A stretch of 64,000 nucleotides of DNA. Source: Lytechinus variegatus (taxonomy: Eukaryota > Echinodermata > Echinoidea > Temnopleuroida > Toxopneustidae). The stretch's first letter is position 1. Every line of letters starts with the position of its first letter. The notes beneath the pieces are model-generated. The model was not told the DNA's origin, searched no databases, and saw only the letters and a list, made by a program, of their open reading frames with translations. The position numbers and the translations under genes were made by a program. The stretch covers positions 16,785,190 through 16,849,189 of the forward strand of contig NC_054740.1 in NCBI RefSeq assembly GCF_018143015.1. The letters are read 5' to 3'. Below, in pieces: positions 2,363-23,692 of this stretch.

Positions 2363-3300
2363 ACTACTACCACCAAACATATAACAATACTTATGCCATA
2401 ATGCCAATATTTCCATGGCGATCACCCCGCCTCATGATAGAAGCAACATGTAGAATGATTTGACTCTATTCTCTACAATACTCTATTGTGCAGACGTTTG
2501 TGTTATACCAAGGAGATTTGGTTATACAGGGCAGTGATCATCGGGTCGTATTCTTTTGCAGCCTTTATGCATCACGAGTATCACACTTCAGTAATTTAAA
2601 AAAGTAGCAGATGTACATTTATTTGGAAGTTCACAAAATAATGCTGGGTTTCCCTTCAATACTTTTCTCCTTGGTCATCACATTCCCTCGTAATATTTTT
2701 AAGGGATGTCAATGACATTAAAACCCCAAATTTTCAAAAAATCCTGGAGAGAGTAACAACACAAACCCATTTTCTGATAACTAGTCCTGTCTTCTATCGT
2801 TGAATGCCCTCATCTAGGCCTACATCTATAACACCCATCAGGCCCTGATGCATAATATGGATGAAAAATACTCAAGGATTTTGAAAATGTGATTTTCCTG
2901 ATATATTTTATAGGAGGGGAGGGGGACTATCTGCTTGATCAGTATAAGGCTATCCGCAATTGGCCATTTTCATAAACCAACGTCGAAAATTTCTAAAGCC
3001 CCCTAAAGCCCCCCCCCCCAAATAATAGTAATAAAAAATTTAGTCCAGAACCACGCCTGGGGGTTCCCATGCACCAGCATGATATATATATTTTTTAACC
3101 AACTTTCGTGTATTGCCTGAAGTGTTTGGTTAATGAATCTTGATGTCCCTTTGGCAAATCGTGTCCCATGGAGTCAAAATTGGCAATTTCGGCGGCCATC
3201 TTGGATTTTACATAAAAATCAACTATTTTCATATTTTTTCCACATACAATGGGAAAATCTCAAATTAATACGCTTTTCAAGATGGTTTAGATAGTAGAAA
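2363..3300. other. Intergenic, nothing recognised
   Basis: There are no open frames of note and no clear repeat ends. A C-run near 3009 looks like the interior of another small MITE. Confidence 0.4.
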
Positions 3301-4880
3301 TCAATTGCAATTTATGCCCTAATTTTCATGTTTTATCGTAAACATCAACAACCAATGCAAACTATCAGCATCACGATTCTAACATGTCTAAAGTGAATCT
3401 GGATTGGTGTTACACAACAAATTATATACAAATGATAAGTAATGCATAGGCCTAAATCAAATTTTCTTTGTTGCCGGCGTCCACCTCAAGTTAAGGCGAA
3501 ACTCGAACAGACTATTTCTTGCAGATGTAATGACTATAATTGCAAATGATAAAAAAATATATAGATTGATTTAGTCGACCTATTTTGATTCACTTTTCAA
3601 ACAATAAATTGGTCTTCTTTCGAGCCCTGTGATAACACTACACCCAAAACATTATTGAACAAACATCATCGCATAACATAGGTTTAAACACACGAGAAAT
3701 AGAGCAATCATAAGGCAATACTGACAAGTAAATTAAAAGATTAATATTAAATTGAAATTCAGTTATAACATTGTTAAAAGCAAACATTAGCAGCCGAGAG
3801 ATTTACAGTAGTAGAGAACGAATTGTATTTTAAATATTTCGATCTAATTTTCGGATTTAAAATGGCGCCTTGGTGAATGATGAGGAACTGCGTAACACAT
3901 GAAACGTCGAATAAACGTACATCGATATACACCATAAAAATGATAATGATAATTGATCCATAAAACAGAATAAATCAAAAGAATATCATTTGGTGAACAT
4001 TATGACATCAAATTCTTACCTTTTGTTTAGAAAATTGGAGCTACGGGTCAAGATGACTCTTTCAAAATTGTATTCAAAACTCACTTTTATTGTATTTATA
4101 ATTGTGTCCACAATATAACCTCTCTAAAATGGCGATGGATCATTTGCAAATAATGACGTAAAATCTGTAATAATGTTTTATTATGCAAATAACAGGCATG
4201 GTGATGATAATGATCTTGATATTTGCCAGATTGGGGATTCCCCGGCTTACTTGAATACCTTATGGGGCAAATGGAGCTGTAGTGGTTATGTAGCATGATA
4301 TCTTGCCAACAACCTCGCCCCCAAAGGCATCACATGATGATAGCCAAAAGAGGGGGGGGGGGGGTATTCTATCGTAGTGATAGAGCGAACAATGACTTAC
4401 GAGGGGGGCCTTCGGGGGCACTAGGCCCCCCAAAATTCCACAATCCTCCCAAAAATAAGTAAAGAGAAGTGGAAAAGACAGATAAAAAATAAAGAAGGAG
4501 AAATTATTTTTACTTGTATCATGTCAAATATAATTAGATTTTCATTTTATAAAGGCCAGTATTTTAACTCTATCCGTTTGCAATGTTGTGCCCCATCAAT
4601 TTATGGGCTCAATCATCACGTCACTGGAATAAACAAACAAAACACTAAAGCTAATGAATATTCATTCTTTTTTTATATTTTTATTCATCTTACGCTGCAG
4701 TGTTATGGCCTGCTTGGTTTTGGAAAAAGTGCTTTACAAAACAAAGGCGCCCTGTAGTTATAAGGTAACATCACAATCTACTAACCAAAAACATCAAGAG
4801 AGGATGAATGAAAATCAAAAGAATAGATAAATAAGTAGCACTGCATGTAAAAATGCTTTTAAAATCAATATCAAAGTCTT
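3300..4880 (-). repeat. Tandem-unit copy A, left part
   Basis: This segment aligns by eye with 14745-16540 (copy B) and, up to its CACTGGAAT end, with 22345-23692 (copy C). Shared landmarks in order are a TTGGTGTTACA word, GCAGATGTA, TTTAAAATGGCGCC, GGAGCTACGG, the kappa-B-containing block and CACGTCACTGG. It forms the left edge of a tandem duplication whose repeated unit also contains a 45-bp minisatellite and a leucine-zipper exon. The copies are diverged by substitutions and small indels, so the duplication is not very recent. Confidence 0.75.
4154..4243 (-). promoter_or_regulatory. Conserved regulatory block A (CRE/ATF, C/EBP/octamer, kappa-B)
   Basis: TGACGTAA lies at 4154-4161, TTATGCAAAT at 4181-4190 and the 11-bp palindrome GGGGATTCCCC at 4233-4243. 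The same three words, in the same order and at similar spacing, occur in copies B and C. GGGGATTCCCC fits the known Rel/NF-kB site form. On the minus strand, a likely splice donor (AAAG then GTAAGAA) lies about 130 bp downstream near 4020. That fits a short untranslated first exon starting near this block. No binding data are available; the role is inferred. Confidence 0.5.
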
Positions 4881-4881
4881 T

Positions 4882-7800
4882 GCAAAAGACCAGTGTTGTG
4901 ATGGAGAGAGAAGGGAGTGGTATGTAAGCAGTAGCGTACCTAGGATTTTCAAAAAAATATAAAAAAAAGTCCTGAACAGGATACAACAGGATGTAAAGGA
5001 CATTTCACACCAGAAAAAAATGACAAGCAAAAAGGATTTTCAAAAAAAAAAAAGGGGGGGTCTTCAACTTCAATGGAGGGGCCACTGGTGGCTCGTCAGG
5101 AAGGAGGGCGGGAGCAGGGATATGTCCCTTGCATGGGCTGTGACTCGCCAGGGGGGCAGTCTGCCCCCCTCCCCCATAGGTACGCTAGTGTATGTAAGAG
5201 AGGGTTAGTGTTGTGATGGAGAGAGAAGGGTGTGGTATGTACGAGAGGACCAGTATTGTGATGGAGAGAGAAGGGTGTGGTATGTAAGAGAGGATCAGTG
5301 TTGTGATGGAGAGAGAAGGGTGTGGTATGAAAGAGAGGATCAGTGTTGTGATGGAGATAGAAGGGTGTGGTATGTAAGAGAGGACCAGTGTTGTGATGGA
5401 GAGAGAAGGGTGTGGTATGAAAGAGAGGATCAGTGTTGTGATGGAGAGAGAAGGGTGTGGTATGTAAGAGAGGATCAGTGTTGTGATGGAGATAGAAGGG
5501 TGTGGTATGTAAGAGAGGATCAGTGTTGTGATGGAGAGAGAAGGGTGTGGTATGAAAGAGAGGATCAGTGTTGTGATGGAGAGAGAAGGGTGTGGTATGT
5601 AAGAGAGGATCAGTGTTGTGATGGAGAGAGAAGGGTGTGGTATGAAAGAGAGGATCAGTGTTGTGATGGAGAGAGAAGGGTGTGGTATGAAAGAGAGGAT
5701 CAGTGTTGTGATGGAGAGAGAAGGGTGTGGTATGTAAGAGAGGATCAGTGTTGTGATGGAGATAGAAGGGTGTGGTATGTAAGAGAGGATCAGTGTTGTG
5801 ATGGAGAGAGAAGGGTGTGGTATGAAAGAGAGGATCAGTGTTGTGATGGAGAGAGAAGGGTGTGGTATGTAAGAGAGGATCAGTGTTGTGATGGAGAGAG
5901 AAGGGTGTGGTATGTAAGAGAGGATCGAAGTTGTGATAGAGAGAGAAGGGTGTGGTATGAAAGAGAGGATCAGTGTTGTGATGGAGAGAGAGAAGGGTGT
6001 GGTATGTAAGAGAGGATCAGTGTTGTGATGGAGAGAGAAGGGTGTGGTATGTAAGAGAGGATCAGTGTTGTGATGGAGAGAGAAGGGTGTGGTATGAAAG
6101 AGAGGATCAGTGTTGTGATGGAGAGAGAAGGGTGTGGTATGTAAGAGAGGATCAGTGTTGTGATGGAGATAGAAGGGTGTGGTATGTAAGAGAGGATCAG
6201 TGTTGTGATGGAGAGAGAAGGGTGTGGTATGAAAGAGAGGATCAGTGTTGTGATGGAGAGAGAAGGGTGTGGTATGTAAGAGAGGATCAGTGTTGTGATG
6301 GAGAGAGAAGGGTGTGGTATGAAAGAGAGGATCAGTGTTGTGATGGAGAGAGAAGGGTGTGGTATGAAAGAGAGGATCAGTGTTGTGATGGAGAGAGAAG
6401 GGTGTGGTATGTAAGAGAGGATCAGTGTTGTGATGGAGATAGAAGGGTGTGGTATGTAAGAGAGGATCAGTGTTGTGATGGAGAGAGAAGGGTGTGGTAT
6501 GAAAGAGAGGATCAGTGTTGTGATGGAGAGAGAAGGGTGTGGTATGTAAGAGAGGATCAGTGTTGTGATGGAGAGAGAAGGGTGTGGTATGTAAGAGAGG
6601 ATCGAAGTTGTGATAGAGAGAGAAGGGTGTGGTATGAAAGAGAGGATCAGTGTTGTGATGGAGAGAGAGAAGGGTGTGGTATGTAAGAGAGGATCAGTGT
6701 TGTGATGGAGAGAGAAGGGTGTGGTATGTAAGAGAGGATCAGTGTTGTGATGGAGAGAGAGAAGGGTGTGGTATGTAAGAGAGGATCAGTGTTGTGATGG
6801 AGAGAGAAGGGTGTGGTATGTAAGAGAGGATCAGTGTTGTGATGGAGAGAGAAGGGTGTGGTATGAAAGAGAGGATCAGTGTTGTGATGGAGAGAGAGAA
6901 GGGTGTGGTATGTAAGAGAGGATCAGTGTTGTGATGGAGAGAGAAGGGTGTGGTATGAAAGAGAGGATCAGTGTTGTGATGGAGAGAGAAGGGTGTGGTA
7001 TGTAAGAGAGGATCGAAGTTGTGATAGAGAGAGAAGGGTGTGGTATGAAAGAGAGGATCAGTGTTGTGATGGAGAGAGAAGGGTGTGGTATGTAAGAGAG
7101 GATCAGTGTTGTGATGGAGAGAGAAGGGTGTGGTATGAAAGAGAGGATCAGTGTTGTGATGGAGAGAGAAGGGTGTGGTATGAAAGAGAGGATCAGTGTT
7201 GTGATGGAGAGAGAAGGGTGTGGTATGTAAGAGAGGATCAGTGTTGTGATGGAGAGAGAAGGGTGTGGTATGTAAGAGAGGATCAGTGTTGTGATGGAGA
7301 TAGAAGGGTGTGGTATGTAAGAGAGGATCAGTGTTGTGATGGAGAGAGAAGGGTGTGGTATGAAAGAGAGGATCAGTGTTGTGATGGAGAGAGAAGGGTG
7401 TGGTATGAAAGAGAGGATCAGTGTTGTGATGGAGAGAGAAGGGTGTGGTATGTAAGAGAGGATCAGTGTTGTGATGGAGAGAGAAGGGTGTGGTATGTAA
7501 GAGAGGATCAGTGTTGTGATGGAGAGAGAAGGGTGTGGTATGTAAGAGAGGATCAGTGTTGTGATGGAGAGAGAAGGGTGTGGTATGTAAGAGAGGATCA
7601 GTGTTGTGATGGAGATAGAAGGGTGTGGTATGAAAGAGAGGATCAGTGTTGTGATGGAGAGAGAAGGGTGTGGTATGAAAGAGAGGATCAGTGTTGTGAT
7701 GAAGATAGAAGGGTGTGGTATGAAAGAGAGGATCAGTGTTGTGATGGAGAGAGAAGGGTGTGGTATGTAAGAGAGGATCAGTGTTGTGATGGAGAGAGAA

Positions 7801-8120
7801 GGGTGTGGTATGTAAGAGAGGATCAGTGTTGTGATGGAGAGAGAAGGGTGTGGTATGTAAGAGAGGATCAGTGTTGTGATAGAGAGAGAAGGGTGTGGTA
7901 TGAAAGAGAGGATCAGTGTTGTGATGGAGAGAGAAGGGTGTGGTATGTAAGAGAGGATCAGTGTTGTGATGGAGAGAGAAGGGTGTGGTATGTAAGAGAG
8001 GATCGGTGTTGTGATGGAAAGAGAAGGGTGTGGTATGAAAGAGAGGATCAGTGTTGTGATGGAAAGAGAAGGCCGGGTGTGGTATGAAAGAGAGGATCAG
8101 TGTTGTGATGGAGAGAGAAG
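4882..8120. repeat. 45-bp minisatellite array 1
   Basis: About 65 head-to-tail units read TATGTAAGAGAGGATCAGTG then a TTGTGATGGAGAGAGAAGGG core and TGTGG. The first unit at 4882-4928 is separated from the rest by a hAT-like MITE. Because 45 is a multiple of three and the unit lacks stops in several phases, long open frames appear on both strands; I do not treat them as genes. A 2-bp GA gain in some units shifts phase. A distinctive variant (GATCGAAG) recurs at 5923 and 6600, so a block of 15 units plus 2 bp was duplicated. It lies 3' of the leucine-zipper exon at 9461-10010. Confidence 0.95.
4929..5190. mobile_element. hAT-like MITE inserted in the minisatellite
   Basis: The ends are CAGTAGCGTACC and GGTACGCTAGTG, a near-perfect inverted repeat. 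It is flanked by the exact 8-bp direct repeat TATGTAAG (4921-4928 and 5191-5198). That octamer is itself part of the minisatellite unit, so the target is known. 8-bp duplications and CAG-type ends are diagnostic of the hAT superfamily. There is no transposase frame, so it is non-autonomous. Confidence 0.9.
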
Positions 8121-9180
8121 GGGAGAACCAGGGGGGGGGGAGTGCCCAAAAAATTCCCAGTAGGAAAAAATGCCTTTTTTGAAAATGAAATAAATACATT
8201 TTAGGTAAGAAAATCACAATGTTTGGCTCGCGCTCGCATCAATTATTGTTTAGTATCGGGTATTCGTCCTGTTCATAGTTACAAAAATACATGTCCAGTT
8301 TTCAGGTTTTTAGCCTGTATCCTATTTAGGAGTCTCTACATGCAGTCTTTAAAAGATTTTCTTTTCTGATCGGTATATTTAAAAAATCAGTTCGCGCTCG
8401 CGTTAATTCTTTAGTTAGATCATGGACCTACCACTCTGAGTGGTAGGTCCATGCTTAGATTCACATCCTTTTTTCATTATTCAAAAAACTGCTCGGGATG
8501 TTTACTTTTCGTGTCTAATTACATTGAAGTTGCGAGCTCGTGATTCGCGCTCGCAACATCTCGCAAGGATGTCCTTTTAACATATAGGTCCATAATTGAC
8601 CAAAAAGCGAGTTTTACAACTTTAGATTTGAAAGTTTTTCCAAACCCTCGCTCGCTACGCTCTCTCGTGAAAAAATAAAACCTTAATATAAAACTTATCC
8701 TTTTATATCATTGTTATTGAAGTCTTTGTATAATTATTAGGTTGTAGGGTCAGCTAATCACAAGCCGGATCACAAGGCTTGTTCCTTTCTTGCTGTCCCT
8801 CTCATATTCAATCCAGTGTTTATTTGTATTTGTTGTTATTGTTTTCTATTTTGTGAATATGATGCTTTGTATATGCAGTGTTGCAGTGTTTTTGTTTAGA
8901 TTTTTATGGGCAAAGAAAGATGTGGTATGGAAGAGAGAAGTTTGTGTCTTTACTTTTTATGGGCACTCTGAGCACTATTTCAGCCGGAAGAAAAAAAAAA
9001 CACGATTATTTCCACAACCATTTCCTTACTCTCAGCCATTTTAAAAATCTTTCGGTGCCCCCACCCTCCCCCTCTCTCCCATGTCTCTTTCTTTTGTTTC
9101 ATATTTTCACTCACAATACAATATTTTTTTCCCACCTCCCAGCTCCCCTTTAATTAAAAACTGTATTACATGGTATCTCA
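8121..9180. other. Copy A filler and degenerate minisatellite edge
   Basis: The part up to about 8780 has no counterpart in copy B. It contains several CGCGCTCGC-type words and probably is an old insertion. A perfect 15-bp-arm hairpin lies at 8421-8453. From about 8900 the sequence again matches copy B (19915-20100 and 20160-20420), including one decayed minisatellite unit near 8919. No gene is seen. Confidence 0.5.
8421..8453. repeat. Perfect hairpin, 15-bp arms, 3-nt loop
   Basis: CATGGACCTACCACT at 8421-8435 is the exact reverse complement of 8439-8453, with a CTG loop. It lies inside the copy A-specific insertion. Confidence 0.85.
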
Positions 9181-9296
9181 CTCACAGTTCTTTAATTCTC
9201 TCTGTCAAATCATGACATCACTTCCATTTCCTTTTCTCACTTTCCTTTGTACTAGAAATAAAAAACTAATTCATGCTAGCTTGATTTCAATTCACA

Positions 9297-9302
9297 TTTA
9301 TT
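9297..9302 (-). terminator. Poly(A) signal candidate, zipper gene 1
   Basis: AATAAA on the minus strand lies 159 bp 3' of the stop codon. The surrounding sequence (a GAAATAAA word and the TTTATTTTTTACACTACATT stretch) is kept in copy B at 20546-20551. Confidence 0.45.
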
Positions 9303-9460
9303 TTTTACACTACATTTTCTTTTAACATCATATCCAATCTTCTACATATCTGATTTTTCTATTTTCTTTTTCTAATGTGCATCATCTTCCTTTGCTGAGA
9401 CCATGATCACCTTACTATTCAGGGTTTGGCGACATGATATCATTTAAAGGGCCAACTTTC

Positions 9461-10010
9461 CTATTTCTCATACACCCTAAGACCACAGGATTCCGTGTGC
9501 TTTGTCTGCTTAAGTTCAGACAACTGTTTTTGAAGCTCATACATCTTTCTTTTAATTTCAGAATTTTCTGCTTCAAGATTCGTTACTTTCATTTCTAAAG
9601 ATTTAAACTTTTTGGCGTTATTTAAACGCTCATTGTTTAATCTTACAGATTGGCTTGTATATGCCTTCATAAATCGAGGCAACTTCGTGTTAATAAAATA
9701 ATTACGAGTTCCAAAAGAGCACTGAGTGCTATCATGGTTATACTCATTAGAAGAGAGGCTTTTTGGAACAGACAATAGATCATCTTCATTCTCATTATCG
9801 TCCTTAGAAGGACTGCTACTTGACACCGGAAAGAGTTCAGCGATCTTCTCTTTGACCTTAACCCCAAGATCTATTATTTTGAGTGTCCCTCTAGAATCAC
9901 ATTCCACTCTTTCATCTGGTAGCGGAGGCCGAGGACCACCATGGTTCCCGAAGTCTATTGTTGCTTGAACTTTCGAAAAACGCCTTTTATTCAAGGGATT
10001 GGAACGTTGG
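9461..10010 (-). CDS. Leucine-zipper (bZIP-like) protein, terminal exon, gene copy 1
   Basis: Product not recognised by name. The exon begins at 10010, straight after a strong acceptor (a T-rich tract then ACAG at 10011-10014; TCTAAC branch-like word upstream), and its first base completes a codon. It encodes 182 residues. The N-terminal half is acidic and Ser/Pro-rich and contains KVKEKIAEL. The C-terminal third has a basic stretch (SQSVRLNNERLNNAKKFK) followed by leucine or isoleucine at seven-residue steps (LEMKVTNLEAENSEIKRKM), so it is a coiled coil and possibly a divergent bZIP; the usual basic-region Asn is not clear. The parallel exon at 20690-21203 shares this architecture and the same splice phase. 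Relative to it, a 1-nt difference about 25 bp before the stop makes this copy end at VYEK, while the longer tail is still readable in the other frame. Upstream exons were not found. Confidence 0.65.
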
Positions 10011-10202
10011 CTGTAAAAAAAAGTCAAGTTAGAATATTCAATCATGTCTTGATTGCTATCGGAAGGTGCCACCAAAGAACATCCATAAACACATTAAAAG
10101 AATACAGTTAGACAAATAAATTTATATCTACATCAAGAAAAACACAACAAAAACATTATCATGGAGAGGAATGAATTATGTACAGGATGGAGTGAGACAT
10201 TT

Positions 10203-10993
10203 TGCCTCACCTGCATATAGCACAGTGGGTATAGAGGCGCCACTTTTCCGACGACGGCGGCGTCAACATCAATCTTAACCGAAGGTTAAATTTTTAAAAT
10301 GACAGCATAACTAAAAAAATATATGGACCTAATTCATGAAACTATAACATAAGGTTAAACAAGTATTACTGAACATTCTGCATGAGTTTCAGGTCACATG
10401 ACCACGGCCAAAGGGCATTTAGGATCAATGAACTTAGACCATGTTGGGGGAGTCAATATCGAAATCTTAACCAAAGGTTAAGTTTTTGAAATGTCATCAT
10501 AACTTCGAAAGTATATGGACCTAGTTCATGTAACTTACACATAATGGGTAATGAACTTTGGCAAATTAAGTTTGGGTATTTCTTGAATTACCATAATAAC
10601 TTTCAAAGTTTATGGATCTTATTCATAAAACGTGGACATAAGAGTAATCAAGTATCACTGAACATTCAGTGCGAGTTTCAGGTCACATGATCAAGGTCAA
10701 AGGTCATTAAGGTCAATGAACTTTGGCCATGTTGGAGGTAATTTTCAAAAATTGCTGTCATAACTTTCAAAGTTTATGGATATAGCTTATGAATTGTGGA
10801 CATAGGGATAATCAAGTATCACTGACAAGTCTTAGGTCACATGATCAAGGTCAAATATTATTTAGGGTCAATGAACGTAGTATTGTATCATTATATGAAT
10901 GATGTTTTTGTGAATAAGTATTTTATAGTAGGTTCAAAGTCAGCACTGTTGCTATATTGAATTGCGTAATGCAGGTGAGAATGCCAGAGGCGC
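10203..10993 (-). mobile_element. Non-autonomous TIR element with DR1-bearing subrepeats (copy 1)
   Basis: The left end GCCTCACCTGCAT and right end ATGCAGGTGAG are inverted. The interior has degenerate tandem subrepeats ending in AGGTCACATGATCAAGGTCA-type words, and a CGACGGCGGCG stretch lies next to the left end. It is the same family as 33340-34612, in opposite orientation. Copy B lacks it: the flanks join near 21918-21940, which gives an approximate empty site. No transposase frame. Confidence 0.7.
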
Positions 10994-11056
10994 TATTATG
11001 AATTGAGAAATGTTTCAAATGTTTCAATTCTTCAAGGTTTTATTCATACCAACATC

Positions 11057-11790
11057 AAAGGACAAGTCCATCTCATCATGAATGAAAAGAGAAAATTCGA
11101 ACAAGCATAACACTGAACATTTCATCACAATCGGATGTAAGATAAGAAAGTTATGACATTTTAAAGTTTCGCTTAATTTCACAAAACAGTTATATGCACG
11201 TCCTGGTCGGTATGCAAATGAAGAGACTGATGACGTCATCCACTCACTATTTATTTTGTATTTTATTATTCGAAATATGAAATATTATAGTTTTCTCCTC
11301 ATTTTCAAGTGAAATGACAATTAATTCCTCCCTGAACATGTAGAATTAGCATTGTTTGATACTATATGGTTCAGTAAAATTGGTCCTTATTGTGAAATCT
11401 GTAAAAAAATATATATTGTTTAATTCAAACAATAAAAACAAAATAAATAGTGAGGGACGGACATCATCGACTGTCTCATTTGCATGTCACTGAGTTGCGC
11501 AAAACACTGTTTTGTGAAAATAAGCGAACTTTAGAATGTCATACCTTTTGTTTGATTTGGTTTTATTTATCGTATAAAAATCGCAACAAAATACATTGTA
11601 CAAATTATTAAAATTAAAAAGATTCGGATGGAACACTCTATTCCGAGCCATTGATAAATGGCTCTGTTCTTCCTAGAGGTCTTATTTTACATCCGATTTT
11701 GATGAAATTTTCAGCATTATGCCAGTCTGATTTTTCTCCTTTAATTCAAATCAACATTTTTCTAGGGTGGACTTGACTTTTAAACATTCT
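11057..11790. mobile_element. TTAA-target foldback MITE (GGACAAGTCC family), copy 1
   Basis: It begins AAAGGACAAGTCC and ends GTGGACTTGACTTT; the two halves are long imperfect inverted repeats. It carries TTTCATCACAATCGGATGTA-type words on the left and the reverse complement on the right. About 140 bp of unrelated sequence is inserted near 11545-11685. It is absent from the matching place in copy B near 21980. Confidence 0.75.
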
Positions 11791-11839
11791 TTATACACAC
11801 AGACAACCAATTTTACAAAAATAGCTTTTCATAGATATG

Positions 11840-12116
11840 TAAAGTTACCGTATAAAACACGAAATCATGAATACAGAATTATTATTGAACAGTTGTTCTA
11901 AAATAATGACTGAGATTTAAAAAAGAAGAAGTACAACAGATGTGGATAAGAAGGAGCCAAAATTAAAAGCATTTCATCATGATTCTATTAAAGTGAATCG
12001 GGATTTGTGTTACAGAAGAAATGATATACAAAGGGTAACAAAAATCATGTCATTTTAAACTATAATCCATTATCCATAAGCCTACCTCAAATTTTCCATG
12101 ATGCGATAATTGTCCT
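11840..12116. repeat. Tandem-unit boundary segment, copy A
   Basis: It aligns with 22050-22351, including the words GGAGCCAAAA, AAAGTGAATCGGGATT, CCTACCTCAAATTTTCC and GATGCGATAATTGTCCT. It ends exactly at the hAT insertion site at 12116/12117 and resumes at 14745. Confidence 0.8.
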
Positions 12117-14736
12117 CAGGCGCGTACGCAGGATTTTTGAAAGGGGGGGGGGGTCGAGCTGATTTTTTTTTTTAAATCTCCCGCCCAGTCTCTAAAAAGT
12201 GATGAGCGGGGGGGAGGTGATGATTTTTTTTTTCTTTTTTTTCAGCGCTGCAAATAAGACAATAACATTTAAGTGGGGATGGGTATGTAACAGTGCGGTC
12301 ATGACCCGCGAGCGAGCAGAAATGTTCTCGTTTTTGCGTTGAAAACATAACCTTTTTGTCAATAGTTTGTTGGTATCATAGTCGATGCTACATGTCCTTC
12401 GGATCGTAGCACTCATGATATGGCCAACCGCGTAGCCAGGATTTCATTTTGGAGGGGGCGGTAAATGCACGCGAAGCGTGCCAACACTTACAGAGCGCGC
12501 GAAGCGCGCTCCCTAGGGGGTGGGTGCAGGGAGGGGGAGTTTCCCCCTCCCGCGCGAAGCGCGAAGCTTTTAGTGTTTCATAAATTAAAATGAAAAGGAG
12601 CCGTTTCTCTTGTCTCTAGTACCTCCAATTCGGTTGACTATATTGCGATTTTGAACCTTGTTTTCAAAAGTGATTGTAAACGCACAAAAGAGGTATACAA
12701 TGGAGGAAATTAAAATGATAATAACTCCGCGCGAAGCGCGGAAGCTAAAGTGATTTATCAACTTTTCTTGCCATAAAAAGGGTCCCGAGAAAAGGGTATT
12801 CTCAAAGATATATTGAAACTTTCTTTGGAAAGATCAGATTTGATTACAAACAATTTAGCATCAGTGCATATTTTTAACTCGCAAAACAGAGGAGAAGATT
12901 GGTAGAGGAAGATATTCCTCCCCGCGATGAGCAATGAAACTCTGAAATTTCAAAGGGCGGACGTTTCATCAAATGTAGATATCTCTAATACCCAATCGTC
13001 TCTAATTCAATTGATTTTCTAAGATTATTGAACTTCATTACAAGGAAAATAGTGCGCATAAAGTTGAAACTTCTGTGATTTGTTGAAATTATCTATCTAT
13101 ATAATAAAGGATGATTAATTATCCTGAAGTGCTTCATTTTGAATATAAAGAAACTTAAGTGTCATTCAAAATTTCAAACTGAGGGCGCAAAACAGGACAG
13201 GAGATGAATGTATACAGGGAAATGACATGAAGTTTAATACAATTTGATAAAAAAAATATTGTACTTTTTTATTTAATACGACACGAATTCCATACCTTCC
13301 TCTTTTTAAATTAGGAACCTGTTTGCCCCCCGAATTATGGTTGTTTATAGTAATGAGCTGAAAAGCGGGAGAAGCTGACTTTATGGAGGTGACGGCAGAA
13401 ACTGATATAAAGATTTTACCCGCTCGGAGCCGACCAGACCAGAAGTTGCGCGATCAATTGAAAAAAAAAACGATAACTTCATACATTTACTTCGGCCTAA
13501 CCTTACTCAAATTCATGCCCTAATGTATACAATTTTAACTTTAACTGGCAAGAAGCACATAGCTGAGGTGGAAAAACAGGGTTAGAGAAAAGGTGGGGGA
13601 ACAATGGAGAACTTCAATATTGTCATTTAACCGCGCGCAGCGCGGAAGCAAAATTCATATATGAATTTAAAGCAAGAAGAGTGAAGGAGTTTCTCTTTTA
13701 AGAAAAAAATAAAGAATAAATAGAAAAAACACAAAGCTACCTTTCTTCCCTTTCCTTCCTTCCCTTTTCCTTTTCTCCTCTCCTTTTTTCCCTTCTTTTT
13801 TTTTCTTTTTGGGGACGTTTTGGGGGGGGGGGCGGCTACGCGCCTGGATATGGCCTTGATCAGAACACTAGAAACTTGAGAAATGTCATGAATAATTACG
13901 AGCGAGCGAAGCAAGCGAGCCGAAATGTTTGCGTTTTTCCGTCAAAACATACAATTCTTCTCAATAGCTTGTTGGTAATGATTACATATTAGTTGATGAT
14001 ACATGTCCTTCTGCTCGTAAGTCTCATGATATGGCCTTGATCAAGAGACTAGAAACTTAAGAAATTTCATAAATGATTACGAGCGAGCGGAGTGAGCGAG
14101 CCGAAATTTTCGCGTTTTCCCGTCAAAACATACATTTCTTGTCAATAGTTTGTTAGTAAATCAAGTATTAGTCGATGCTACATGTCCTTCTATTCGTAAC
14201 ACTCATAATACGGCCTTGAACAGGAGACTAGATACTTCTGGAATTTCATAAATCATTACGAGCGAGCGGAGCGAGCTAACCGACATTTTAGCGTTTTCCG
14301 TCATTTTGGTTTTCATATTGGTAAAACATATTTTGTAAGAAAACGTATGTCTTTGTCTTGGTTCACTTGTATTCATAAGTATACATCATGATAATCATGT
14401 ATGGCCTTGTTAATGGCGATACCGTGATCATGTCGGCGACATGCGGAAATAAAAGATATAATAAAATGGAGCGAGCGAAGCGAGCGGAAATTTTTTCTGT
14501 GTTTTTCGTCGGAAACATGAGATTCTGTTCATTATTGCTGTCATATACATTATTGGGTAGGGGAACTGTCCGTAACCAGACCAAGGAGTTATCAGGCTCT
14601 TGCCCGATAACTACTTGACCAGACCGACCTCTGGGGAGACAAGCAAAAAAAAAAAAAAAAAAAAAGGAAAAAAAAAAGGAAACGAAAGGGGGGGGGGTTT
14701 GAACCCCCGAAACCCCCCCCCTTGCGTACGCGCCTG
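12117..14736. mobile_element. hAT-like DNA transposon, 2.6 kb, non-autonomous, with nested hAT
   Basis: The ends are CAGGCGCGTACGCA and TGCGTACGCGCCTG, a perfect 13-bp inverted repeat apart from the innermost base. It is flanked by the exact 8-bp duplication ATTGTCCT (12109-12116 and 14737-14744). The paralogous segment at 22344-22351 holds a single ATTGTCCT with continuous flanks, so it is a true empty site. The interior is built of about 180-bp tandem repeats (units near 12290, 13850, 14035, 14210 and 14400) with the word GAGCGAGCGGAGCGAGC. No transposase frame is seen. Confidence 0.95.
12425..13846. mobile_element. Nested hAT-like element inside the first
   Basis: The ends are CAACCGCGTAGCC and GGCTACGCGCCTG. 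It is flanked by the exact 8-bp duplication GATATGGC (12417-12424 and 13847-13854), which lies in one of the host element's tandem repeats. The interior has repeated GCGCGAAGCGCG palindromes about every 100-250 bp and a purine/pyrimidine tract near 13740-13810. No transposase frame. Confidence 0.88.
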
Positions 14737-15576
14737 ATTGTCCTTCTCCACGATTGAGGAAAAACTTGAATGGTCTGACTTTGAATAGACTGTTGCAGAT
14801 GTACCAACTATATGTACGAAAGAGAAAAAAAGGAAAGTAAATTTATCTATTTTAATTCATTTACTGAAAAATCACTAATTCATTCAATTATTAATTTCAA
14901 TACGGGAAGACTTATTCAGCAATAGCTGTTTTTCGATAGGTCCGTGTATATCAAGTAGCCTCTTCAGCAATATTGGTCGCCCATGAGGCCTTGTGAAATC
15001 CATTAAATATAAATGAACAAAAATCATATCATAACACAAGCATTAACATAGATAAAAATGAAACGATCATCAAGTGAAAGTGACAAATAAACCAAAAGCA
15101 AATATTCTAAAATCACTGGGACTAGTTACAATAGTAGCCGAGAGATACATAGTAGGCCTAGAGACCCGAATAGTTAATGATGATTAAATTTTAAATCATA
15201 TACTTGAACCAACACATTTCATCATGTTTAATTCCAAACAATTTACAACGTCTATATGGGAGAAAGAAAGCTTCAGATAGGTTTTTTTTTATATTTTCAA
15301 TCTAATTTTTGGATTTAAAATGGCGCCTTGTTGAATGATGGGGTACTGCGCAACAGATAAAACATCGAATAAACATACACCGATATACACCATTAAAATG
15401 ATGGTGATGATCCTTGAAACACAATAAATCAATGGAATATCATTTTTTGAATGTTATGAAATCAAATTCATACCTTTTGGAGCTACGGGTTAAGATGACT
15501 CTTCAAAATTGTAATCTTGTATAGTAAGTTTGCCCACAATATAAATTGTCTAAAATGGCGATGGTGGGCAAAATGA

Positions 15577-15660
15577 TGACGTAATATCTATAATGCTTCA
15601 TTATGCAAATCAACGGTTGATGATCATGATCTTGATGTTTGCCAGCTTTGGGGATTCCCC
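15577..15660 (-). promoter_or_regulatory. Conserved regulatory block B
   Basis: TGACGTAA lies at 15577-15584, TTATGCAAAT at 15601-15610 and GGGGATTCCCC at 15650-15660. A minus-strand donor-like AAAG then GTATGAA lies near 15475. It sits 5.6 kb upstream of zipper exon 1 (2.9 kb once the hAT element is discounted). Confidence 0.5.
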
Positions 15661-16329
15661 GGCATAGTTGAATACCTGGCTTATGGTTTATGGAACAAGT
15701 GGAGTTGTAGTGGTTATGTAGCATGATTCCTATGCCTTAAATATATTTATAACAACATCCATATTTTTTGTTTGTTTTGAAGCCACGATCGATCCGGAGG
15801 GCCATGAGCCTGTCGGTGATCAACCTCTCCCTAAAGGGGGAGGGTGTTATTTTATCGTAGTGATAGAGTGAACAATAATGGCTTACGGAGGGGCCCTTCG
15901 GGGGCACTGGGCCCAAAAAGTTCTACAACCCTCCCAAAAGTAAATAAAGAGAAGTGGAAAAGAAAGAGAGGAAAGGAAGAAAGAGACATTATTTAATATG
16001 ATATCATGTAAAATATAATTACAGGTAGATTTTCATTTTAAAAGGGGCCAAAATTCTAGCACGCTTTGCAATTTTGCGTCCACTCATTTTTTTTTGGCTC
16101 AATCATGACGTCACTGGAATCAGCACACAAAACACTCAGACTAATAAACATCTATTTATTTTTCTTGTTTTATCCATTTTATGCTGCAGGGTTGGCCTGT
16201 TCAGTTTTGAAAAAAGAGGTATTTAAAAAAAAAAAGGCGCCTTGCAGTTAAACAAGCATAATTTAATATGATAAATCAAAGGAAGGTAACATAAACTACT
16301 GACAACAAAACATAAAGAGTGGATAAATG

Positions 16330-16473
16330 CATAGGCGGCGTAAGCGGAGGGGGGACCTTTTCCCCCTATTTTTTTTGTTGATAACCCTTTTTTTTTTGCT
16401 TGTCAAATTTTTTACCTGTGTCCATCCCAAAATTTCAGGTGGACCCCCCATTTTTTTTTACTTCCGCCGCCAA
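16330..16473. mobile_element. MITE with GGCGGCGGAAG ends, 10-bp target duplication
   Basis: The ends CATAGGCGGCGTAAG and CTTCCGCCGCCAA are inverted repeats. An exact 10-bp direct repeat, TGGATAAATG, flanks it (16320-16329 and 16474-16483). A 9-10-bp duplication fits Mutator-like elements better than hAT. At 144 bp it cannot code for a transposase. Confidence 0.85.
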
Positions 16474-16562
16474 TGGATAAATGACAATCTAAAAAGTAAA
16501 TGCATGAACAGCACTACATGTTAAAATGGCACTGAATCAATATTAAAGTGTTTGCATGAAAG

Positions 16563-19500
16563 AGACTACAGAGATTATCAGTGTTGTGATGGAGAGAGAA
16601 GGGTGTGGTATGAGAGAGAGGATCAGTGTTGTGATGGAGAGAGAAGGGTGTGGTATGAAAGAGAGGATCAGTGTTGTGATGGAGAGAGAAGGGTGTGGTA
16701 TGTAAGAGAGGATCAGTGTTGTGATGGAGAGAGAAGGGTGTGGTATGTAAGAGAGGATCAGTGTTGTGATGGAGAGAGAAGGGTGTGGTATGAAAGAGAG
16801 GATCAGTGTTGTGATGGAGAGAGAAGGGTGTGGTATGTAAGAGAGGATCAGTGTTGTGATGGAGAGAGAAGGGTGTGGTATGTAAGAGAGGATCAGTGTT
16901 GTGATGGAGAGAGAAGGGTGTGGTATGTAAGAGAGGACCAGTGTTGTGATGGAGAGAGAAGGGTGTGGTATGAAAGAGAGGACCAGTGTTGTGATGGAGA
17001 GAGAAGGGTGTGGTATGTAAGAGAGGATCAGTGTTGTGATGGAGAGAGAAGGGTGTGGTATGAAAGAGAGGATCAGTGTGGTGGTGGAGAGAGAAGGGTG
17101 TGGTATGAAAGAGAGGATCAGTGTTGTGATGGAGAGAGAAGGGTGTGGTATGTAAGAGAGGACCAGTGTTGTGATGGAGAGAGAAGGGTGTGGTATGTAA
17201 GAGAGGATCAGTGTTGTGATGGAGAGAGAAGGGTGTGGTATGAAAGAGAGGATCAGTGTGGTGGTGGAGAGAGAAGGGTGTGGTATGAAAGAGAGGATCA
17301 GTGTTGTGATGGAGAGAGAAGGGTGTGGTATGTAAGAGAGGACCAGTGTTGTGATGGAGAGAGAAGGGTGTGGTATGTAAGAGAGGACCAGTGTTGTGAT
17401 GGAGAGAGAAGGGAGTGGTAGGAAAGAGAGGACTAGTGTTGTGATGGAGAGAGAAGGGTGTGGTATGTAAGAGAGGACTAGTGTTGTGATGGAGAGAGAA
17501 GGGTGTGGTATGTAAGAGAGGATCAGTGTTGTGATGGAGAGAGAAGGGTGTGGTATGTAAGAGAGGATCAGTGTTGTGATGGAGAGAGAAGGGTGTGGTA
17601 TGTAAGAGAGGATCAGTGTTGTGATGGAGAGAGAAGGGTGTGGTATGTAAGAGAGGATCAGTGTTGTGATGGAGAGAGAAGGGTGTGGTATGAAAGAGAG
17701 GATCAGTGTTGTGATGTAGAGAGAAGGGTGTGGTATGAAAGAGAGGATCAGTGTTGTGATGGAGATAGAAGGGTGTGGTATGAAAGAGAGGATCAGTGTT
17801 GTGATGGAGAGAGAAGGGTGTGGTATGTAAGAGAGGATCAGTGTTGTGATGGAGATAGAAGGGTGTGGTATGAAAGAGAGGATCAGTGCTGTGATGGAGA
17901 GAGAAGGGTGTGGTATGTAAGAGAGGATCAGTGTTGTGATGGAGATAGAAGGGTGTGGTATGAAAGAGAGGATCAGTGCTGTGATGGAGAGAGAAGGGTG
18001 TGGTATGTAAGAGAGGATCAGTGTTGTGATGGAGAGAGAAGGGTGTGGTATGTAAGAGAGGACCAGTGTTGTGATGGAGAGAGAAGGGTGTGGTAGGAAA
18101 GAGAGGACTAGTTTTGTGATGGAGAGAGAAGGGTGTGGTATGTAAGAGAGGACCAGTGTTGTGATGGAGAGAGAAGGGTGTGGTATGTAAGAGAGGATCA
18201 GTGTTGTGATGGAGAGAGAAGGGTGTGGTATGAAAGAGAGGATCAGTGTGGTGGTGGAGAGAGAAGGGTGTGGTATGAAAGAGAGGATCAGTGTTGTGAT
18301 GGAGAGAGAAGGGTGTGGTATGTAAGAGAGGACCAGTGTTGTGATGGAGAGAGAAGGGTGTGGTATGTAAGAGAGGACCAGTGTTGTGATGGAGAGAGAA
18401 GGGAGTGGTAGGAAAGAGAGGACTAGTGTTGTGAATGAGAGAGAAGGGTGTGGTATGTAAGAGAGGATCAGTGTTGTGATGGAGAGAGAAGGGTGTGGTA
18501 TGTAAGAGAGGATCAGTGTTGTGATGGAGAGAGAAGGGTGTGGTATGTAAGAGAGGATCAGTGTTGTGATGGAGAGAGAAGGGTGTGGTATGAAAGAGAG
18601 GACCAGTGTGGTGGTGGAGAGAGAAGGGTGTGGTATGAAAGAGAGGATCAGTGTTGTGATGGAGAGAGAAGGGTGTGGTATGTAAGAGAGGACCAGTGTT
18701 GTGATGGAGAGAGAAGGGTGTGGTATGTAAGAGAGGACCAGTGTTGTGATGGAGAGAGAAGGGAGTGGTAGGAAAGAGAGGACTAGTGTTGTGATGGAGA
18801 GAGAAGGGTGTGGTATGTAAGAGAGGACTAGTGTTGTGATGGAGAGAGAAGGGTGTGGTATGTAAGAGAGGATCAGTGTTGTGATGGAGAGAGAAGGGTG
18901 TGGTATGTAAGAGAGGATCAGTGTTGTGATGGAGAGAGAAGGGTGTGGTATGTAAGAGAGGATCAGTGTTGTGATGGAGAGAGAAGGGTGTGGTATGTAA
19001 GAGAGGATCAGTGTTGTGATGGAGAGAGAAGGGTGTGGTATGAAAGAGAGGATCAGTGTTGTGATGTAGAGAGAAGGGTGTGGTATGAAAGAGAGGATCA
19101 GTGTTGTGATGGAGATAGAAGGGTGTGGTATGAAAGAGAGGATCAGTGTTGTGATGGAGAGAGAAGGGTGTGGTATGTAAGAGAGGATCAGTGTTGTGAT
19201 GGAGATAGAAGGGTGTGGTATGAAAGAGAGGATCAGTGCTGTGATGGAGAGAGAAGGGTGTGGTATGTAAGAGAGGATCAGTGTTGTGATGGAGATAGAA
19301 GGGTGTGGTATGAAAGAGAGGATCAGTGCTGTGATGGAGAGAGAAGGGTGTGGTATGTAAGAGAGGATCAGTGTTGTGATGGAGAGAGAAGGGTGTGGTA
19401 TGTAAGAGAGGACCAGTGTTGTGATGGAGAGAGAAGGGAGTGGTAGGAAAGAGAGGACTAGTTTTGTGATGGAGAGAGAAGGGTGTGGTATGTAAGAGAG

Positions 19501-19912
19501 GACTAGTGTTGTGATGGAGAGAGAAGGGTGTGGTGTGAAAGAGAAGACCAGTGTTGTGATGGAGAGAGAAGGGTGTGGTATGTAAGAGAGGACCAGTGTT
19601 GTGATGGAGAGAGAAGGGTGTGGTATGTAAGAGAGGATCAGTGTTGTGATGGAGAGAGAAGGGTGTGGTATGAAAGAGAGGATCAGTGTTGTGATGAAGA
19701 TAGAAGGGTGTGGTAAGTAAGAGAGGATCAGTGTTGTGATGAAGATAGAAGGGTGTGGTAAGAGAGATAGGATCAGTGTTGTGATGGAGAGAGAAGGGTG
19801 TGGTAAGTAAGAGAGGATCAGTGTTGTGTTGGAGAGAGAAGGGTGTGGTATGAAAGAGAGGATCAGTGTTGTGATGAAGATAGAAGGGTGTGGTAGGAAA
19901 GAGATAGAGTGC
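16563..19912. repeat. 45-bp minisatellite array 2
   Basis: About 74 units of the same 45-bp sequence as array 1. A higher-order repeat is visible: a unit with GATGTAGA occurs at about 17714 and 19064, 1350 bp (30 units) apart, and the unit order around both is almost identical (17503-18096 against 18853-19446). GTGGTGGTGG-type variants mark units at about 17070, 17250, 18250 and 18610. The last units decay (GATGAAGATAG). Frames of over 1100 codons are open in two phases of the minus strand as a by-product of the period. Confidence 0.95.
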
Positions 19913-20420
19913 AATACCACACTTTTCTCTCTCCATCATAGCACTTCTTCAGCTCGAAGAAAAACTGTTCCACACTCTCTTCCTTATTCTCAGCCCTCAA
20001 ATATTTTTATTTTTTTTAACTTTCGCACTTCTTTCCCTCTATTGTCCATAATCCCTTTTGTTTCAGATTTTCACTCACAAAGAAGGGTTTAATATGTAAG
20101 AGGGGACCAGTGTTGTGATGGAGAGAGAAAGGTGTGGTGTGAAACAGAGGACAGATGTTTTGATTGTGAGATGTTTGTGCTATAAAAGAAACACACTTTT
20201 GCGTCTTTTCATTCAGTTGTGGGGAGGCTGAGCATGCACTCCTTCAGCTCGATGAAATACTGTTATACTTCCACACTTACTTCCTCGTTCTCAGTCCTAA
20301 AATATTTTTTTCTTTTCTTTCTTTTTTAAATTTTTTCTTTCCCTCTCTACTCTCCCTTTTGTTTCAGATTTTCACTCACAAAGTTATACTCGTTTTACCA
20401 TCTCCCAGCTCCCCTATCAC
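19913..20420. repeat. Duplicated 3' edge of array 2
   Basis: Two copies of a segment running from TTCTTCAGCTCGA through TCAGATTTTCACTCACAAAG lie head to tail (about 19935-20085 and 20245-20385). One decayed 45-bp unit lies between them at about 20103. Copy A has a single version at about 8960-9120. Confidence 0.7.
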
Positions 20421-20545
20421 ATCGGTATCTCACTCACAGTCCTTCAATTCTCTTTCTCTCTCTGTCACATCATCACCTCTTTTAATTTTCGCACTTTGTA
20501 TTGGAAATAAACGATCCAATCATTGTAGCTTGATTACAGTTCAGA

Positions 20546-20551
20546 TTTATT
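20546..20551 (-). terminator. Poly(A) signal candidate, zipper gene 2
   Basis: AATAAA on the minus strand lies 139 bp 3' of the stop, in sequence conserved with copy 1 (9297-9302). Confidence 0.45.
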
Positions 20552-20689
20552 TTTTACACTACATTTTGTTTTCTTTTACATCAAATCCAAGCTTCTACAT
20601 CTTATATTTTTACGCTTACATATTTGATTTTTCTATTTCCTTTTTCTTTTTAGTATGCCCCATCTTCCTTTGCTGTGACCATAATCACC

Positions 20690-21203
20690 TTACTCTTCTG
20701 GGTTAGGCGACATGATATCATTTAAAGGGCCAACCATTCTATTTCTCATACACCCAGGACCACAGGGTCCCTCATGATTTGCCTGTACTTGTTTTTCAAG
20801 CTCACACATCTTTTTTTTAAGTTCAGAATTTTCTGCTTCAAGATTCGTTACTTTCATTTCTAAATATTTAAATGAATTGGCGTGATTTCTACGCTCATTA
20901 TTTGATCTTACAGATTGGCTGACATATGCCCTCTTTAATCGAGAAAACTCCCGAGATAAGTTCATGGTGTTTGAAAATAACCAATTAATAAAATAAATAA
21001 TTGTTCCAATAGTGCACTGACTGCTATCTTTCTTATATTCATTAGAAGAGAGGCTGTTTGGAGCAGACAATCCATCATTATCCTCATTAGAAGGACTGCT
21101 ACTCGGAGAGAGTTCAGCGATCTTCTCTTTGACCTTAATCCCAAGATCATCTGGTAGCGGAGGACAATTATGGTTTGCGATGTCCAATAATGCTTGGTTG
21201 TGG
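20690..21203 (-). CDS. Leucine-zipper (bZIP-like) protein, terminal exon, gene copy 2
   Basis: Product not recognised by name. The exon begins at 21203, after TTTTATACAG with a GTTATAAC branch-like word, in the same splice phase as gene copy 1. It encodes 170 residues. Blocks shared with copy 1 are KVKEKIAEL, SLSSNEY, a YFIN block, and a C-terminal basic-plus-zipper segment (SQSVRSNNERRNHANSFKYL, then LEMKVTNLEAENSELKKKM). In that segment Leu recurs every seventh residue four times. A Gly/Cys/Pro-rich tail ends NPEE. Coding blocks are better kept than much of the flanking DNA, which suggests real selection, but I cannot prove expression. Regulatory block C lies 2 kb upstream. A nuclear DNA-binding or dimerising role is only inference from the basic-zipper look. 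Confidence 0.65.
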
Positions 21204-21267
21204 CTGTATAAAATCAAGTTATAACATTCAATGATGTCTTGATTGCTAGAAAGTGCACCAAAGAGCA

Positions 21268-21799
21268 TTAAAGGGCAGGAAATATTTATATCCAAATAAA
21301 TAGGGTAAAATTGACAGAGAAAAATGCTTAAATTTTCATCAAGATCTGAACATACAGCAAAGTTATAGAATTTCAAAGTTAAGTAATCTATTGTGAAAAC
21401 AGTTATGCACGTCGTCATGAATATTCATTAGATTAGCTGATGATATCACATGTGTGAATGATATGTTTCCCTTGTAATGAAATAAGTTACAGCAATGAAT
21501 ATCTAATGTACTTAATCAGTTGTTTTTCCCAATATTATTTTTGGTTCTTGAAGGGAAAAATTTGAATAAACCTAATTTCATATGATAAAAACAAAAGAAC
21601 AAGTAGGGATATGACATCATCAGTGAGCTCATTGAATATTCATGAAGACATGCCTAAAACTGTTTCACCGGAATAATGCAATTCTTTAAGATGCCATTTG
21701 TTATTCCATGTTCGATTTTGTTCAAATTTTCAGTGTTTTGTTCGTCTGATTTTTTTTTGTTGTTGATCTATTCAAATAATCTTTTAGCCTGGAGTTTAA
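21268..21799. mobile_element. TTAA-target foldback MITE, copy 2 (degraded)
   Basis: It is bounded by TTAA at both ends (21268-21271 and 21796-21799). Inside the left end is AGGGCAGG and inside the right end CCTGGAG. The interior keeps TTTTCATCAAGATCTGAA and its inverted partner. In copy A the flanks are continuous near 10078-10098, so copy A is the empty site. Confidence 0.75.
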
Positions 21800-23692
21800 T
21801 AAACACATTAAAAGAATGCAGTAAGACATATAAATTTATATCTACATCAAGAAAAACACAGGCTCAAAAGCATTATCATGGAGAGGAAGAAACGATATAC
21901 AGAACGGAATGACACATTTTTATATAGAATATTCTTTTGAATTGAGAAAGGCTTCGATGTTCCATGGTTCTATTTTTATACCATTTCACATTTTTACACA
22001 AGCCGATTTTACAAACATTTGTAATTTATGAAAGGTGCAAACAAAGTTCTCGTATAAAACATAAAAATCATGTATACAGAATTATTATAGATTATATGAC
22101 ACCTAGATAGATCCTTGGCATATTTGTATAATAGTTGTTCTAAAATATTGACTGAGAAAAAAATGAGAGAGGTGGATATGAAGGAGCCAAAACTAATAGC
22201 ATTGATATATATTCTTTGTTTTGCATCATGATTCTATTAAAGTGAATCGGGATTGGTGTTACAGAACAAATTATATCAAAATGGTAACAAATCATGAATC
22301 ATGAATTATAATCCATAGGCCTACCTCAAATTTTCCATGATGCGATAATTGTCCTTCTCCACGATTGATGCGAAACTTGAATGGTTTGACTTTGAATAGA
22401 CTGACAGTTGCAGATGTACCAACTATTCACGAAAAGAAAAAAGAATGGAAGTAAATTTATTTACATCAGTCCACTTACTGAAGATCATTAATTCATCTAT
22501 TTATTTCAATACCGGAAGACTTACTCAGCAGAAGCTATATTTCGATCGGTCCATGTAAAAAAAGGAAGAATAAAAAAAGACTCTTCAACAATAGTTTGGT
22601 CACCTATGAGGCCCAGGAGAATATATAAACATAAGACATAAATGCAAAAATATATCATAACATAGGCATAAACAAAAATAAAAATAGAACAACCATAAAG
22701 GGAAAGTGACAAGTGATCAGAAGCAAATATTTTAATTCACTGGGACTATAGTAGCCGTGAGATATTATAGTAGGCCTATAAAGACCCGAATAGTTAATGA
22801 CAATTGTAATTTTAACTCATCTATTTGAACCAACACTTTGTGTATTTTTATTCCAAACAATTTAAATCGGATATGGGAGAAAGAAAGCTTCAGATATAAA
22901 GGTTTCATTTTGTTTTGTTTATATTTTTAATCTCATTTTCGGATTTAAAATGGCGCCTATAAATGACAGGAACTGCGCAACAGATAAAATGTCGAATAAA
23001 AATGTACACCGATATACACCAATTAAACGATAGTGATGATCCTGAAACACAATAAATCAATGGAATATCATTTTGTGAACATTATGAAATCAATTCTTAC
23101 CTCTTATTTTGAAAATTGGAGCTACGGATCGAGATGACTCTTTCAAAAATGTAACTGTAATTGTTTCCACAATACTGGCAGAGGATCTTTTGCAAACGAT
23201 GACGTAAAGTCCGTACTAATGCTTCATTTGCATTATGCAAATCAAGAGGTATGTCGATGATCATGATCTTGATCTTGATGTTTGCCAGATTGGGGATTCC
23301 CCGGCTTAGTTGAATACCTTGTGGAGCAAATGGAGCTTCAGTGGTTATGTAGCATGATGTCTATAAAAAATATTCCTTGATATAAGTACAACAAAATGTT
23401 CTCTTTTTTAAAGCCACGATATGGATCCATAGGGTCAGGATCTTGTGAGCAATCTCGCCCCTAGGCATCACATGATGATGACAGGGGGAGGGTATTTTAT
23501 CGTAGTGATAGAGCACTAGCCTCCCCCCCCCCCGTTCCACAATCCTCCCAAAAATAAATAAATAAATCATGTTATTTGTATCATGTCAAGTATAATTAGA
23601 TTTTCATTTGATAAAGGCCAAAATGTTAGCTCTATCGTTTTGTAATGTTGCGTCCCATCAATTTTGGGGCCCGATCATCACGTCACTGGAAT
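21800..23692 (-). repeat. Tandem-unit copy B right part and copy C left part
   Basis: 22050-22351 matches 11840-12116; 22352-23692 matches 3475-4630 and 14745-16120. Copy C stops abruptly after CACTGGAAT at 23692, with no minisatellite or zipper exon beyond it. An open frame at 22521-22712 is not kept in copy B, so I do not call it a gene. Confidence 0.75.
23200..23302 (-). promoter_or_regulatory. Conserved regulatory block C
   Basis: TGACGTAA lies at 23200-23207. Back-to-back octamers ATTTGCAT (23226-23233) and ATGCAAAT (23235-23242) follow, then GGGGATTCCCC at 23292-23302. A minus-strand donor-like AAGAG then GTAAGAA lies near 23101, so transcription leftward toward zipper exon 2 is plausible. 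The first exon would be non-coding, since no start codon is kept between block and donor in any copy. Confidence 0.5.

Follow-up and report, generated by a model that had tools for sequence, protein, structure and literature searches.

A probable tandem cluster of three leucine-zipper genes with putative inducible promoters and 45-bp minisatellites in Lytechinus variegatus

A window of 64,000 bp from the sea urchin Lytechinus variegatus (C1:16785190-16849189, C1 being contig NC_054740.1; genome of 870 Mb in 33 contigs) carries a tandemly repeated unit composed of a promoter-like block (L), a 45-bp minisatellite array (M) and a leucine-zipper exon (Z). Coordinates without a contig prefix are positions in this window. 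The unit has a constant anatomy, the zipper exons retain their reading frame and the L copies share sequence motifs. The explanation favoured here, with more confidence than doubt, is that the minus strand carries a tandem cluster of three protein-coding genes (Y, Z-A and Z-B) that derive from one ancestral gene, with L blocks as promoters and with arrays that exchange sequence. Each gene would have an ATG exon, which closes with a phase-2 donor, and a terminal exon. In the product of the latter, a short leucine-zipper coiled coil would follow an acidic, serine-rich segment that is probably disordered, and in Y this pair would occur twice. Z-A and Z-B would each stand behind a promoter-like block (L-B and L-C, respectively). 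The products may be small intracellular proteins working by dimerisation.

Self-comparison of the window, performed with the minisatellites masked, confirmed the tandem L, M and Z unit proposed in the initial annotation: three L blocks, two M arrays and two Z blocks recur in equal order and orientation in both units, far above chance (best E-values of 1.6e-156 for Z and 0.0 for L). The L copies lie at 3368-4760 (L-A), 14737-16250 (L-B, with its 3' part moved to 11888-12116) and 22130-23692 (L-C), and the Z copies at 9085-10203 and at 20350-21268 plus 21799-21920. The left-to-right pairing of promoters with genes in that annotation had to be corrected, since the genes are transcribed from the minus strand. 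Given this direction, each L block would serve the Z block to its left, so that L-C is paired with Z-B and L-B with Z-A. The cluster runs on to the left of the window, where a third array (M0) and a third gene (Y) are found 18-26 kb away. The proposal of a repeated zipper gene family is supported in part, with three genes in place of two copies and with an upstream ATG exon added.

In Z-B, exon 2 (22325..22422, minus strand), identified by its match to exon 2 of Z-A, contains the ATG at 22338 and ends with a phase-2 donor (GAG|GTAGGC). The zipper exon, exon 3 (20690..21203, minus strand), ends with TAA, and the predicted protein has 175 amino acids (aa). An AATAAA poly(A) signal lies downstream (20546..20551, minus strand). 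In Z-A, exon 2 is split by an insertion into a 5' half inside L-B (14807-14737, minus strand) and a 3' half with the ATG at 12099 and the donor (12086..12116, minus strand); positions 12109-12116 of this half form the second target-duplication copy. The zipper exon of Z-A (9461..10010, minus strand) ends with TAG, and the predicted protein has 187 aa; its AATAAA signal at 9297-9302 occupies the site equivalent to that of Z-B. In both genes, an AG acceptor precedes the zipper exon, the upstream exon ends with ATGGAAAATTTGAG|GTAGGC, the two bases left over from exon 2 fill up the zipper exon's first codon, and the proteins begin with MENLS. Between the two genes, exon 2 is identical at 90 of 94 aligned positions, and a single gap of 4 bp precedes the ATG. 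Close to the 3' end the genes differ by 1 bp in length, which leaves Z-A with a tail unlike that of Z-B.

Y comprises an ATG exon (C1:16766657-16766608, minus strand) and a terminal exon (C1:16766347-16765141, minus strand). It encodes 419 aa with two internal repeats, adjoins M0 and lies on the same strand as the Z genes. Purifying selection between the internal repeats is shown by their ratio of nonsynonymous to synonymous substitution rates (dN/dS), 0.44 (0.27-0.72). An AlphaFold model of Y from one sequence contains two long helices, with a per-residue confidence score (pLDDT) of up to 97 by block. The sequence comparisons suggest that Y is a distant relative of the Z genes. Its intron splits the codon of EENAS in phase 2, as in the Z genes with MENLS, and this match (ENLS, ENAS) supports a common origin. 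The Smith-Waterman score of Z-A against Y is 96, a value reached by none of 1000 window shuffles (mean 48.2, maximum 81), and reversed Y scores 49. Outside the coil the score is 76 (shuffle mean 39.5, again reached by none of 1000). Among 66 local open reading frames (ORFs; at least 100 aa, arrays and Z excluded), Y is the top match for both Z proteins. Genome-wide protein searches, which score the best candidates only, with Z-B (E<=0.001) and with Y and Z-A (E<=10) yielded no further relatives except for hits at E>=2.

Internal coding gaps between Z-A and Z-B measure 36, 6, 42, 6, 12, 30, 12 and 1 bp, so that seven of eight are multiples of three, vs 10 of 31 non-coding gaps between the two units (Fisher P 0.007). 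In-frame stops are absent from the 182 (Z-A) and 170 (Z-B) codons of exon 3, which bears out the initial annotation as to the retention of coding blocks. A stop-free frame was obtained in about 3% of neutral-substitution simulations with one present-day copy as the ancestor. Exon 2 is better conserved than the bulk of intron 1 (identity 0.80; P 1e-5), and its first part is identical at 34 of 51 positions in the orphan copy L-A.

Block L has the features of a regulatory region. L-C (22130..23692, minus strand), recognised by homology to L-A and L-B, covers the promoter-like region of Z-B together with its exon 1, presumed to be non-coding (donor after 23101), and its intron 1. L-B (14737..16250, minus strand) covers the corresponding parts of Z-A, with the exon-1 donor after 15474, as well as the 5' half of its exon 2. 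L-A (3368..4760, minus strand) is a third promoter-like copy with an intact exon-1 donor (after 4020). Exon 1 is closed by a GT donor in every copy (AAGAG|GTAAGA in L-C). In a three-way alignment, the exact 11-mer GGGGAATCCCC, which we take to be an H-2K-type kappaB site, as well as ATTTGCAT, TTACGTCA and TGACGTSA, are retained by each of the three copies. For each of these four motifs, between 0 and 4 of 300 shuffled versions did as well. In L-C the putative sites are kappaB at 23292-23302, an octamer at 23235-23242, ATF at 23200-23207 and a cAMP response element (CRE)-like site at 23678-23685. A C/EBP-like pattern and GATA are conserved in L as well, but were equalled by 30 and 143 of 300 shuffles, respectively. 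Patterns for AP-1, the interferon-stimulated response element, the gamma-activated site, E-box, TATA, Ets and Runx are not conserved across the three L copies. Of the 17 positions matching kappaB patterns in 124 kb (overlaps counted), those in the three L copies are the only ones with an octamer or ATF/CRE match no more than 150 bp away. A genome search with block L gave no other long match. The description of L as a regulatory block is thus upheld at the level of putative sites, and its motif content suggests a stimulus-inducible promoter (kappaB, octamer and ATF/CRE sites). L-A may or may not serve Y, 22 kb downstream of it. Its exon-2-like remnant near 3533 is decayed, no Z block follows downstream within the window, and the retention of promoter and donor beside a decayed remnant would fit a promoter now serving Y. 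An 18-bp run, AGGCGCCATTTTAAATCC, is also identical in the three L copies, within intron 1 (22941-22958, 15328 and 3870).

The minisatellite arrays M-B (16570..19904, 73 full 45-bp units), M-A (5190..8122, 65 units, with an extra partial unit at 4891-4928 severed by an insertion) and M0 (C1:16759330-16762713, adjoining Y) have an identical 45-bp consensus. A genome-wide pattern search with 35 bp of the unit and up to 3 mismatches returned 203 matches, and none on the reverse strand or for a reversed control. A recount in 124 kb also gave 203 (71 in M0, 58 in M-A and 74 in M-B), so every genome match sits in these arrays. M-A and M-B share six unit types, which account for 52 of 65 and 45 of 73 units. 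Among exact 45-bp units (61 of 65 in M-A, 73 of 73 in M-B and 67 of 75 in M0), differences amount to 2.50 of 45 positions between M-A and M-B, 2.43 within M-A and 2.38 within M-B. M0 is more uniform (1.51 within, 2.07 to M-A and 2.02 to M-B). M-B also contains a higher-order duplication, in which a block of about 19 units is found again, its order nearly unchanged, 30 units (1350 bp) further along.

By eye, the left flank puts M-A and M-B at an equal spot of the duplicated unit, and the right flank of M0 matches the 3' flank of Z-B at 73%. The flanks of the arrays differ by 12-27% despite the shared consensus. The chance of an unchanged 45-bp consensus at 13-20% divergence is 2e-3 to 4e-5. One consensus beside such diverged flanks implies exchange between the arrays, which would be the simplest account of their likeness; a rival account is that selection on the 45-bp unit keeps them alike. 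The arrays downstream of the genes probably exchange sequence with each other, and their recombination could also gain or lose whole genes.

It is scarcely credible that the minisatellite is itself coding, either for a 15-residue repeat protein or for a galaxin-like CC repeat. Open frames of 1144 and 1130 aa do occur on the minus strand of M-B, and a match to Pfam Galaxin_repeat (E 3.8e-23) is above the cut-off. However, open frames come free with a 45-bp unit, a multiple of three, and the synonymous excess among variants is not significant in any of the six frames (lowest P 0.105). Irregular units are present as well (4 of 65 in M-A have 47 bp; 8 of 75 in M0 are not 45 bp long). Galaxin with its coding di-cysteine repeats was rejected despite the Pfam match, as the CC frame carries stops and there is no coding pattern.

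Several observations weigh against a cluster of three working genes with inducible promoters and exchanging arrays. The initial annotation had made a dN/dS well below 1 its decisive test, with a value near 1 counting against a gene, and the outcome went the latter way: Z-A vs Z-B gives 1.02 (bootstrap 0.58-1.92; Nei-Gojobori, 149 codons). Differences are spread evenly over the codon positions (19, 18 and 18 over 119 codons, a stretch that starts at the conserved LG.KVK motif and stops just short of the 1-bp difference). Exon 2 is little above the best-kept first 180 bp of intron 1 (0.89, P 0.02), and Z-A has the 2.6-kb insertion in its 5' exon and the altered tail. As to kinship, the Z-B score against Y is 75, reached by 1 of 1000 shuffles, with 68 for reversed Y, and the non-coil part of Z-B against Y is not significant (91 of 1000 shuffles reach its score). 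In the genome-wide searches at E<=10, Y did not list Z and Z-A did not list Y; these searches are too blunt to link the two and may have passed over a more distant relative. The AlphaFold model of Z-B is poor (mean pLDDT 49.5). The motif matches in L do not amount to evidence of binding, and since the L copies are related to each other, their sites count as one origin and not as three; L-A is at most a putative promoter of Y. Finally, the C variant at unit position 16 has frequencies of 0.30 in M0, 0.03 in M-A and 0.32 in M-B, hence the arrays are not wholly one pool.

On part of this evidence, Z-A and Z-B could be decaying duplicates evolving without constraint, with Y alone as a working gene. 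The dN/dS of about 1, the even codon positions, the insertion and altered tail of Z-A and the L-A copy lacking a downstream Z exon would agree with such a scenario, and both dN and dS of Z are near 0.2, i.e., at the level of non-coding divergence (Jukes-Cantor 0.13-0.28). Decay would leave unexplained the seven of eight gaps in frame, the stop-free codons of exon 3 and the identity of exon 2 compared with that of most of intron 1 (near 0.80), and it is considered rather unlikely. Because seven of eight coding gaps keep frame and stops are absent, the Z genes are read here as evolving fast under frame constraint rather than decaying, although recent decay of one or both copies could have occurred.

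The initial annotation had described the zipper protein as one of no recognised family, and this holds true: no Pfam family reaches its cut-off for Z or Y, and no chain in the PDB is better than E 0.7. A four-heptad zipper (L then three [LIVM] at seven-residue steps) is present in Z-A, Z-B and both Y repeats. Z-B scores 17.0 bits for bZIP_1 (cut-off 27.6) and 14.5 for bZIP_2 (cut-off 22.3), Z-A scores 14.3 for bZIP_1 (27.6), and Y has no bZIP match at E<=0.1. A PROSITE-like basic-region pattern is absent from all three proteins. The basic-region pattern N-x7-[RK]-x9-L, with nine residues to the first Leu, is absent from Z-A and Z-B and matches once in Y, inside its helix. Identity as bZIP transcription factors was rejected, since, despite the zipper, there is no basic-region signature and the scores stay below the Pfam cut-off.

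The relation to the C/EBP group is a matter of likeness in part: the four-heptad zipper lies in the C-terminal half, and the best-scoring bZIP for Z-A is C/EBP-like, whereas the Z and Y proteins have no basic-region signature and stay below the Pfam cut-off. CHOP acts as an inhibitor by pairing with C/EBP-type factors. The Z proteins could, with low probability, be C/EBP-derived zippers that have lost the basic region and inhibit in the same manner. Among 23 bZIP_2 places in the genome, the best score for Z-A belongs to an ORF that is presumably C/EBP-gamma-like (84, next 63, reached by 0 of 1000 shuffles). For Z-B, two C/EBP-like ORFs score 64 and 63, and one other bZIP also scores 63. A run EM[KR]VTxLxxEN is shared, and the sole PDB match of Z-A at E<=1 is the bZIP zipper of c-Jun (E 0.74). 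On the other hand, C/EBP-gamma ranks third by z-score for Z-A and is outside the top six for Z-B, whose score is reached by 2 to 4 of 1000 shuffles. Y matches C/EBP-gamma at a level that 606 and 425 of 1000 shuffles also reach, and coiled coils are prone to chance resemblance. Two bZIP ORFs that are identical over the portion compared lie 0.9 Mb apart at C1:15244599 and C1:16158243, on the chromosome of the cluster.

The interruptions of the repeated unit look like mobile-element insertions. A 2620-bp hAT-like insertion lies within exon 2 of Z-A, upstream of the ATG (12117..14736); it is bounded by copies of the 8-bp target duplication AGGACAAT and carries 13-bp inverted ends, as in hAT elements. 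A 262-bp hAT-like insertion in M-A (4929-5190) has the 8-bp target duplication TATGTAAG. Insertions are abundant in the region, and the Z and Y ORFs could in principle belong to a transposable element themselves. This is highly improbable: the genome-wide protein searches found only these places aside from hits at E 2 or more, the genes have introns and poly(A) signals, and no Pfam transposon domain was detected in Z or Y. No match to a transposon-encoded protein, named in the initial annotation as an argument against the family, was found.

SpTransformer proteins have a hydrophobic leader. No such leader was found in the proteins described here, the best 15-residue hydropathy in the first 30 residues being -0.28 (Z-A), 0.00 (Z-B) and 0.37 (Y). 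Tandem Repeats Finder (TRF) listed no GA array beside Z-A or Z-B in the window. The SpTransformer (Sp185/333) genes of the purple sea urchin are small two-exon clustered genes, each bounded by tandem repeats for which a role in gene duplication and exchange has been proposed (PMC3091723). Small clustered two-exon genes with tandem repeats are common to both systems. In SpTransformer the repeats are GA and GAT microsatellites, with GA on both sides, and the genes and their proximal flanks are relatively conserved (PMC3091723), whereas here each gene has one 45-bp minisatellite array, the arrays are alike and the genes diverge. As in minisatellites under concerted evolution, the arrays share consensus and variants; the difference is that exchange here seems confined to the arrays, the adjoining sequence having diverged by 12-27%.

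Other elements of the region include a 163-bp tandem repeat family (33413-34534 and 10200-10880), with an inverted relative just upstream of the Z-A exon. A 705-aa open frame with leucine-rich repeats and a sub-threshold F-box match (30113-32230, minus strand) represents an FBXL-like gene. An element resembling a long interspersed nuclear element (LINE) occupies 48131-53176 (minus strand), with a weak zinc-knuckle frame, endonuclease, reverse transcriptase over two frames and RNase H. A second LINE-like element (55447-57420, minus strand) is present in fragments (reverse transcriptase, endonuclease). Mitochondrial COX1 has AAA where animals carry Asn, e.g., at NN of MAFPRMNNMSFW. This is presumably the echinoderm/hemichordate/flatworm code; we take the next frame to be nad4L-like and the protein to resemble sea urchin COX1.

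A more speculative extension of the three-gene cluster, to which little probability is assigned, is that a kappaB/ATF-inducible family of zipper-only proteins, derived from a C/EBP-like factor that shed the DNA-binding half, modulates immune bZIP factors through dimerisation, with gene turnover via exchange between the 45-bp arrays, which stay alike while the proteins diversify. The cluster would provide a three-gene family without a significant Pfam or PDB match and with a predicted immune-type promoter signature. It would also be a compact natural case in which arrays are nearly one pool over 46 kb while the intervening genes diverge, and it may allow a test of minisatellites as possible drivers of gene turnover in animal gene clusters.

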